Positions 53,540 to 56,661 of a stretch of 64,000 nt of DNA are shown piece by piece; the first letter of the stretch is position 1, and every line of letters starts with the position of its first letter. This DNA comes from Anas platyrhynchos (taxonomy: Eukaryota > Chordata > Aves > Anseriformes > Anatidae). The DNA is taken from contig NC_092607.1 of the NCBI RefSeq assembly GCF_047663525.1, positions 5,489,001 to 5,553,000 on the forward strand, written 5' to 3'. Both the position numbers and the translations under genes were made by a program. A model generated the notes under the pieces. The model saw only the letters and a program-made list of their open reading frames with translations. It did no database searches and was not told where the DNA came from.

Positions 53540-53888
53540 CGTCCCGGAGCCGCCCCGCGATTGGCCCCCGCCTCGGCTCGGCGCCTCGGATTGGCCGCCT
53601 GTCAGCGCGTCCGCCGCCGCCCCGCTCGACCAATGAGCGGCCGGCACCACCCCTCTCCCCGACGGCTCCGACCAATGGGGCGCCTCCGTCCGAAGGGCGC
53701 AGCCAATGGGCGGGCGCGCCCAGCCTGGCGCCGCTTTCGCGGCAAAAAGGATTTGGCGCGCAAAGGCGCGCGGGGCCGGAGCGCGGGGACTGCCCGGCGG
53801 TGGCGCGGCGCGGAGCGGCCCCGCGCCCGGCATGGGGCGCGCCCCGGCCCCCGCCCCGGCCCCGGCCCCGCCGCCCGGCCCCTGAGCC
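53540..53888 (+). promoter_or_regulatory. E2F1: E2F1 promoter: five CCAAT boxes and paired E2F sites
   Basis: NF-Y CCAAT boxes lie at 53560-53564 and 53590-53594 (inverted, ATTGG), and at 53630-53634, 53672-53676 and 53703-53707 (direct), spaced 30-42 bp. They are followed by opposed E2F sites TTTCGCGGC at 53735-53743 and TTTGGCGCG at 53752-53760. The sequence through both sites is nearly identical to the autoregulated core of the human E2F1 promoter as I know it. E2F/RB complexes repress this element in G0/early G1 and release it at G1/S. No TATA box. Confidence 0.88.
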
Positions 53889-56661
53889 ATGGCGGCGGCG
53901 GGCGGCTCGGCGGGGCTGGCGGCGCTGCTGGGCAGCTCCTCCCCGCACCTCCTCATCGTCTCCTCCGCCGAGGAGCCCGCGGGCGGCTGCCGCCCCGACG
54001 CCGACCTCCTGCTCTTCGCCACGCCGCAGCCCGCCCGGCCCGGAGCCGCGCCCCGCCGCCCGGCACTGGGGCGCCCGCCGGTAACCCCCGGGACGGGGCG
54101 GGTGCGGGGTGCGGGGAGCCGGGGGGGGGTTGGGGCGGGTGCAGGGGGGCGGCGAGGGGCCGGGCCGGGCCGTGCCACGCGGTGCCCCGCGGGCCGAGCC
54201 AGGCCCTGCCCGGCCCCGGCGCTCCGGAAGCCGCGGGCGGGGGCCGCCTCCTGCCGGGGGGGGGGAGGCAGCGCCGAGAGCCCCGGGGGGAGGCCCGGGG
54301 GGGGGGCCGGGTGCCGGCCGCCCCGCTCAGGAGCCCCTGTCCCGCAGGTGAAGCGCAAGCTGAATCTGGAGAGCGACCACCAGTACATAGCCGAGAGCCT
54401 GCCCGCCGCCCGCGGCAAGCCCAGGAACCCCGGCAAAGGTACCGGCACCGGGCTCAGACCTCACCGCGCCGCGTCCCGGGGTCAGGCTGGGCCGGCTGTG
54501 ACCGCGCTGTCCCCAAACTGCGCCGCTGTGCGCTGGGCTGGGGACAGGGACCCCCTGCAGGGGCCGCCCTGCCCAGCTGCGGGGCTCTGTCCCTGCCCCT
54601 GGGGCTGTCCTTGTCACCGCAGCCTCCTGCACGCACCCCTGCCACCCTGCAGTGTCCCCGTGTGAGCCACCAAGCCCAGGCCTTGGTGCCACAGCACAGC
54701 TCACGCTCGCAGTCGAGTGCAGCTGGCAGAGCCCTGCCCCAGGGTCCCACAGCAGCCTTCCTGGGGAGGACCCTCCTGCCCCCAAAAAATAGACCTTGGG
54801 GTCATGCGGAGCGAGGTGGCACCAGGATGGTCTGGGGACCTCCCGGCTCCAGGGCTGGGTTCCTGCAGTGGCTGAATGCTGCTTGTCCTCGCCCGCTGGC
54901 AGGGGCGAAGTCTCCCGGGGAGAAGTCCCGCTACGAAACCTCGCTGAACCTCACCACCAAGCGCTTCCTGGAGCTGCTGAGCAAGTCGCCCGACGGCGTG
55001 GTGGACCTCAACTGGGCGGCCGAGGTGCTGAAGGTGCAGAAGAGGCGAATCTACGACATCACCAACGTCCTGGAGGGCATCCAGCTCATCACCAAGAAGT
55101 CCAAGAACAACATCCAGTGGCTGTACGTCCCCGGGGACGGGGTGGGGGACGCTCGGAGCAGTGGCGGTGATGACCGTGGAGATGGTCGTGGGGGGGTGCT
55201 GGCTGCATGGGACAGCCAGGGGGGAGGTGACAGCCCCGTGTGTCCTGCAGGGGCAGCCAGGCCGCCGCGGGGGCCTCCAGCCAGCACCGGCTGCTGGAGA
55301 AGGAGCTGCGGGAGCTGCAGGCGGCCGAGCGGCAGCTGGACGACCTCATCCAGACGTGCACGGTGCAGCTGCGGCTGCTCACCGAGGACCCCGCCAACCA
55401 GCAATATCCTTCCGTGCGGGGCCGGGCCGGGTCTGGCGGGGTTGGAGGGCTGGGGGCGGTCGAGCCCCGGCGCCTGTGGTTGCCCATGTGGGGCTCGGTG
55501 CGTGAAGGCGTCCCCGTGTCTGCTCCTTGACCCGCCACACCGCAGCCTACGTCACCTGCCAGGACCTCCGGAGCATCGTGGACCCCTCCGAGCAAATGGT
55601 GATGGTTATCAAAGCCCCCCCGGAGACCCAGCTCCAGGTCTCGGACCCGACGGAGGTGAGTGGCGGCCCTCCCCGGTCCCTCCCCGGCTCTGCAGAGCCC
55701 TAGGTAACCCTCCTGGGCTCCCTGGGTGTTCCCCCCGCACCGTGTCTCACCCGTCCTGCCTTTTCCCCAGGCTTTCCAGGTCTCCGTGAAAAGCACTCAG
55801 GGCCCCATTGACGTGTTCCTCTGCCCCGAGGACAGCTCGGGGGTCTGCAGCCCCGTCAAGAGCCCCTTCAAAGCGCCTTCAGAGGAGTTGTCCCCCGGCT
55901 CGTCGCAGCCCAGAGCCTCCCCTCTCCTGCATCCCGCCCAGGACATCAACATGCCGCTGCTGCCCGGCGAGCAAGGTGGGCGGCGGGGCTGGGGGCAGTG
56001 CCTGGGCTCTGCGGCACAGGGACAGCGTCCTCAGCATGGCTCAAGCCCCATGAGCCTTGGGGGTGAGGGTGCGGGGCTGCAGGCGATGCTCGGGCTTTGT
56101 TTTTGCTGCCTGTTACGGGTGGCTTGGCCTCCGTGCTCGTGTTTCCCTGGCTGCCCACCGGCAGCGATGGTCTGCGCCGTGCTGAGCTCGGCAGAGGCAG
56201 CCTTGGAGGTGTGTGCCAAGGAGAGGTCGCTGGGCCTCTCCATCCCGGCACCCCATGAGCAGTTCGGGCCACGCTGTCCTGATGACCTGGATGTTTCCAA
56301 GCTCTTCAGGTCATGCCATGCGTGCTTTATTGGTGGTGGTGCAGAGCATTGCCCAGAGGTGCCGTTCCATGGTGTGTCATGGGACTGAGAGTCGCTTTGT
56401 GTCCCCACAGAGGCCCTGCTGCCGGGCGCCAGCGTGCTGCCCAGCAAGTGTCCCGCCGAGGAGGTGAGCCTCTCGCCGCTGGCCTCCATGGACGCCCTCC
56501 TGGAGCAGAGCAAGGACGATTTCTCGGGCTTCTTGGCGGACGAGTTCATTGCCCTGTCACCGCCGCAGCCGCAGGATTACCACTTCGGCCTGGAGGAGGG
56601 CGAGGGCATCAGCGAGCTCTTCGACTGTGACTTTGGGGACTTCACGCCCTTGGACTTCTGA
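53889..56661 (+). CDS. E2F1: E2F1, cell-cycle transcription factor, 7 exons
   Basis: Coding exons 53889-54080, 54348-54438, 54903-55122, 55251-55403, 55541-55655, 55771-55975 and 56411-56661 (stop TGA) sum to 1227 nt, 408 aa. All introns are GT-AG except intron 4, which is AT-AC. Residues 1-64: divergent Ala/Gly/Pro-rich N-terminus with LLLFATPQ. Residues 64-75: cyclin A-binding motif PVKRKLNLE. Residues about 100-168: winged-helix DNA-binding domain ([31 protein letters not shown]). Next come the leucine-rich DP-dimerisation helix, then the marked box ([33 protein letters not shown]). The C-terminus holds the RB-binding transactivation motif [19 protein letters not shown]. It is shorter than human (437 aa), mostly in the N-terminus and the linker. 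It activates S-phase and apoptosis genes as a heterodimer with DP proteins. ATG 53889 was chosen because it gives the conserved N-terminus directly after the promoter. Confidence 0.98.
55404..55540 (+). other. E2F1: U12-type AT-AC intron of E2F1
   Basis: This 137-nt intron begins ATATCCTTCC, a near-perfect minor-spliceosome donor. It contains a U12 branch-point match TCCTTGAC with the branch A at 55530, and ends in AC at 55539-55540, ten nt after that A. It has no GT donor. Only this AT-AC excision restores frame: CA joined to C gives His, then Ala-Ala-Tyr-Val-Thr-Cys. E2F family genes are known to carry minor introns. Confidence 0.95.

Follow-up and report, generated by a model that had tools for sequence, protein, structure and literature searches.

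The window, a 64,000-nucleotide stretch of the duck (Anas platyrhynchos) genome, carries an E2F1 coding gene on its plus strand at 53889..56661, recognized through its translation, Pfam domains and a PDB match. Seven coding exons, placed by translation, specify a protein of 408 amino acids; exons 1 to 4 occupy 53889-54080, 54348-54438, 54903-55122 and 55251-55403, and exons 5 to 7 occupy 55541-55655, 55771-55975 and 56411-56661. Two Pfam families, PF02319 and PF16421, were matched by this protein, with residues 106-169 corresponding to the E2F/DP winged helix (E2F_TDP) and residues 183-276 to the CC-MB domain. Exon 4 encodes the coiled-coil, or dimerisation, part of CC-MB, and exon 5 takes the domain up from about profile position 37 with its marked-box part. 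A search of the PDB with the complete protein matched five distinct sequences, the best of them human E2F1 (2aze_B, E 1.6e-38), to which the junction of exons 4 and 5 aligns without a gap. With both E2F_TDP and CC-MB present and E2F1 as the closest match, the gene is, as judged from sequence comparison, the E2F1 orthologue. Upstream of its start codon, TTTCGCGG (53735-53742) and TTTGGCGC (53752-53759) lie near each other, a pair resembling the paired E2F sites carried by the mammalian E2F1 promoter. The motif TTTSGCGC by itself occurs in the window no more often than chance predicts, with 2 found against 3.32 expected.

Introns 1-3, 5 and 6 of this gene are of the GT-AG type, and intron 4 (55404..55540, plus strand, 137 nt, phase 2) is the exception. 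It reads ATATCCTTCC...CTCCTTGACCCGCCACAC and has the organization of a U12-type intron of the AT-AC subtype, the class handled by the minor spliceosome. In such introns the 5' splice site follows the consensus (A/G)TATCCTT and the branch site follows TTCCTTRAC. The donor ATATCCTTCC lies at 55404..55413 and the terminal AC at 55539..55540, after which the sequence continues in the frame of the exon 5 homologue. The putative branch site CTCCTTGAC (55523..55531) is the top-scoring 9-mer within the last 40 nt and agrees with the consensus at 8 of 9 positions. Its context, TCCTTGAC, puts the predicted branch adenosine at 55530, 10 nt from the intron end. This distance falls slightly below the published optimum of 11-13 nt (PMC3584512), as do the 10 nt found in E2F3, E2F4 and E2F5. 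The coordinates in the original prediction, from the donor at 55404 and the branch adenosine to the closing AC, are all correct.

The donor ATATCCTTCC has 1795 sites on one strand of the genome and 1889 on the other, compared with 1226 and 1099 for a reversed control, and is so common that by itself it proves nothing; it was accordingly dropped as independent evidence for a minor intron. Within the window, counting both strands, there are two RTATCCTT sites and five YCCTTRAC sites, and the joint donor-branch-acceptor pattern has a single occurrence, at 55404, a count that carries no shuffle control. A U6atac gene is found at G000:C18:8834717-8834844 with 128.4 bits against a cut-off of 33. A stable RNA fold was also considered as a special feature of intron 4 and was ruled out by shuffling, as 147 of 200 shuffled versions fold at least as well (z 0.60).

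The strongest evidence that intron 4 is a minor intron is its identical position in all six E2F paralogs. A CC-MB profile search of the same genome, admitting E values up to 10, gave 17 matches at six loci, which we take to be E2F1 (C21), E2F2 (C24), E2F3 (C2), E2F4 (C12), E2F5 (C2) and E2F6 (C3), the numbers being assigned by sequence resemblance and recall rather than from a tree. A parallel search with the DNA-binding exons, which also entered into this assignment, gave 20 matches, some of them at other E2F/DP-type loci. In all six paralogs a ATATCCTT donor interrupts the reading frame in phase 2 at a distance of 110 nt from where the CC-MB match begins, and an AC directly precedes the start of the following exon, as set by frame and homology. 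The best branch-site 9-mer in the last 40 nt agrees with the consensus at 8, 7, 9, 8, 9 and 8 of 9 positions from E2F1 to E2F6, and its adenosine lies 10, 16, 10, 10, 10 and 11 nt from the intron end. On these sequence comparisons, E2F1-E2F6 of the duck share one minor intron at one codon position and in one phase. Together with the motifs and the gapless human alignment, this gives good support to the proposed assignment of intron 4 to the AT-AC minor class.

The branch site of the E2F2 copy is weak. In this intron (G000:C24:4387310-4387075, minus strand), the candidate branch site TTCCTATAC, with its 7 of 9 matches, lies 16 nt from the end and closes a run of 15 T residues, and the intron may be drifting towards major-type recognition. 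Its donor ATATCCTTAA contains an in-frame TAA, so that retention would end the reading frame after three codons.

It had also been claimed that excision of the AT-AC intron is the only one that keeps the frame. As worded, this is wrong, and the idea has been abandoned: with donors at 55300-55519 and acceptors at 55480-55655, 121 GT/GC-AG pairs also preserve the downstream frame. These pairs raise the question of whether the major spliceosome might instead remove the intron through a GT-AG pair, and the highest-scoring donor, a GT at 55498, reaches 6 of 7 in a simple consensus count. However, among the best 25 of the 121 pairs, the AGs combined with 55498 fall inside exon 5, and their use would keep intron-coded residues in the protein while deleting some of exon 5. 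For the five frame-keeping pairs that lie entirely within 55404-55547, the donors score 3 or 4 of 7, and the protein would gain 4 to 21 residues. Both the gapless alignment to the human protein and the position shared among paralogs belong to the AT-AC junction, and it is exceedingly unlikely that a GT-AG pair is used in its place. Despite the 121 alternatives, homology and the paralogs point to the AT-AC junction as the predicted site of splicing.

If intron 4 were kept in the transcript, translation from exon 4 would continue for 42 new codons and end at the TGA at 55528-55530, giving a predicted product of 260 amino acids. This open frame and its end are as originally proposed, and so is the composition of the product: Pfam analysis finds E2F_TDP intact and positions 1-38 of the 96 of CC-MB left, the latter scoring 27.4 bits against a Pfam cut-off of 33.9, with the remainder of CC-MB (the marked box) and the C-terminus missing. 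A premature stop on retention is not peculiar to intron 4, since retention of introns 2, 5 or 6 would bring a stop within the retained intron and retention of intron 3 would bring one beyond it. Intron 1 (54081-54347, 267 nt) behaves differently; retained alone, it leaves the frame open and yields a protein of 497 amino acids with an insert of 89 residues, the sole intron of the six to do so.

The fate of a transcript retaining intron 4 depends on where its stop lies. From the stop to the last exon junction there are 330 nt, and two junctions, those of introns 5 and 6, lie downstream of the stop. Under the rule of more than 50 nt applied in PMC6717393, this makes the retained transcript a predicted target of nonsense-mediated decay (NMD), by which, following this rule, it would be degraded. 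The original prediction had offered another outcome, a possible regulatory or dominant-negative form. In this reading, the retained form would be a regulated isoform of 260 amino acids, made when the minor spliceosome is limiting and acting as a dominant negative; it would consist of the DNA-binding domain, the coiled coil and a tail of 42 residues, with the marked box and the RB-binding and transactivation region absent. The 42 open codons and the intact DNA-binding domain agree with such a protein, as does the published retention of the E2F1 minor intron in mouse and human when the minor spliceosome is impaired (PMC12332006). According to PMC6717393, retained minor introns in mouse are shorter than non-retained ones, likewise in human, which also suits this short intron. 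However, the transcript falls under the NMD rule, and with 38 of 96 CC-MB positions left, below the Pfam cut-off, pairing with DP would probably be weakened. The place of the first stop also differs among the paralogs, from 3 to 78 new codons, and PMC6717393 gives 467 minor introns as never retained across eleven mouse tissues. In the open-licence literature, no truncated dominant-negative E2F1 was found; titles and abstract openings there gave no report of a retained intron in chicken E2F1. Retention itself has published precedent, but a dominant-negative truncated protein is very improbable and the less likely fate of the transcript.

What remains to be accounted for is the position of the stop. 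The TGA at 55528..55530 lies within the branch site, is the first in-frame stop on retention of intron 4, and its A at 55530 is also the predicted branch adenosine. The coincidence described as a stop codon built on the branch point is thus real, but no special meaning attaches to it, as the branch consensus itself carries TRA. Because TTCCTTRAC includes TAA or TGA, any consensus branch site brings a stop into one of the three reading frames. A TRA is present at the branch site in five of the six E2F introns, E2F2 having ATA instead. On retention this TRA would be read as a stop in E2F1 and E2F3, but not in E2F4, E2F5 and E2F6, where it is out of frame. Each of the six introns would end the retained frame, the first stop being reached after 42, 3, 42, 78, 22 and 27 new codons from E2F1 to E2F6, and only in E2F1 is the branch-site stop the first. 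Intron 4 of E2F1 is short and has a GC content of 73%, with few other stops, which explains why its branch-site TGA comes first. When its interior was shuffled 20000 times with dinucleotide composition preserved, the donor and branch site held fixed and the real phase kept, 77% of the shuffled versions had no earlier in-frame stop. Combined with a phase chance of one in three, this means that about one such intron in four should show the pattern. The E2F3 intron offers a coincidence of its own: its first retained stop is also reached after 42 codons, at a TGA 124 nt into the intron and far from the branch site.

Such a stop could in principle have been selected, if minor introns tended to place their branch-site TRA where retention reads it in frame, as an inbuilt fail-safe, and its in-frame placement in both E2F1 and E2F3 would fit. 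Yet two of five is close to the third that chance would give in the absence of selection, so that no excess of in-frame branch stops is seen among these paralogs, which are too few to rule out a bias. E2F2 lacks a branch-site TRA and would stop at its donor instead, and in long introns earlier stops make the branch stop irrelevant, the E2F3 intron containing 59 in-frame stops over 2627 nt. Selection of this kind is very improbable, and the best account of the branch-point stop is that it is a by-product of the branch consensus rather than a special device. A search of titles and abstract openings in the open-licence literature gave nothing on stops at the branch point of U12-type or minor introns. 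A tempting pattern is thereby emptied of significance, as about one reading frame in three should place a stop on the branch point of a U12 intron.

Taken together, intron 4 is very probably an E2F-family minor AT-AC intron whose retention is mostly non-productive, acting on dose rather than giving a new protein. The structure of the gene, the motifs, the conservation among paralogs, the position of the stop and a U6atac gene are observed in the genome; that the intron is actually spliced in birds, how fast, and what becomes of retained transcripts are inferred. In the proposed mechanism, U11 and U12 would recognize the intron by its ATATCCTT donor and its CTCCTTGAC branch site. Excision by U4atac/U6atac together with U5 would then join exons 4 and 5 without disturbing the frame. 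If removal of the intron is delayed or prevented, the frame would end within it and leave a transcript that is mostly non-productive, either held in the nucleus or cleared by NMD, and E2F1 output would drop. Retention would thus have a dose effect. That the branch TGA is the first stop reached follows from three circumstances: the TRA of the consensus, an intron length that brings this TGA into frame, and a short, GC-rich intron that holds few others. The fate of retained E2F1 transcripts in birds is predicted from sequence and rule; the retained E2F1 RNA detected in PMC12332006 indicates that decay was incomplete there, and the dose-control role of minor introns is itself debated, neutral processes being argued in PMC10639083 to possibly account for much of minor-intron evolution; the 467 mouse minor introns without retention also tell against such a role. 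A far more elaborate scenario can be imagined in which the bird intron is kept when U6atac is low and the transcript escapes NMD, so that a DNA-binding E2F1 of 260 amino acids lacking the marked box and RB-binding domain damps E2F targets, the branch adenosine then doubling as the final base of the alternative frame. Were this true, the end of the isoform could not mutate without harming splicing, but the scenario as a whole is extremely improbable. With retention as a dose effect, were it regulated in birds, the amount of E2F1 would depend on minor-spliceosome capacity.

Much of this has counterparts in published systems. E2f1, E2f2, E2f3, E2f5 and E2f6 are entered in U12DB, and E2f4 was added in PMC6717393, where the standing model is described as slow minor splicing and a premature stop followed by NMD or an aberrant protein; in PMC6865273, 75% of the E2F family are minor-intron genes. 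Retention of the E2f1 minor intron is raised in Rnpc3-recombined AML cells and E2F1 retention is seen in A549 cells given a U12 antisense oligo (both PMC12332006), e2f4 is retained in zrsr2-mutant zebrafish (PMC9501576), and p38MAPK activation, which raises U6atac, increases the splicing of the minor introns of E2F2 and E2F6 or the expression of these genes (PMC3728624). Conservation in chicken is also on record, as 94% of human minor introns are conserved there according to a figure cited in PMC10639083. The E2F1 intron is therefore already known, as are the class to which it belongs and its retention when minor splicing is impaired, and the bird copy is the expected orthologue.

The closest systems are the E2F1-E2F6 minor introns of mouse and human listed in U12DB and MIDB, with which duck E2F1 shares the gene and the intron class. 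At the level of gene and intron class, no difference beyond the species is seen. Read by eye, the mouse E2f1 forward primer given in PMC12332006 encodes QLQES of the exon 4 coiled coil, by comparison with 2aze_B, and this placement is consistent with the same intron position in mouse E2f1. Next comes the E2F2 minor intron of Patel et al., retained above its flanking major introns as cited in PMC6717393, which is the same family intron with the same proposed control by slow removal. The duck copies of these two genes would end their frames differently, E2F2 after 3 codons at the donor and E2F1 after 42 at the branch site, and the conservation of the minor intron from E2F1 to E2F6 in the duck agrees with the published work on the E2F family.
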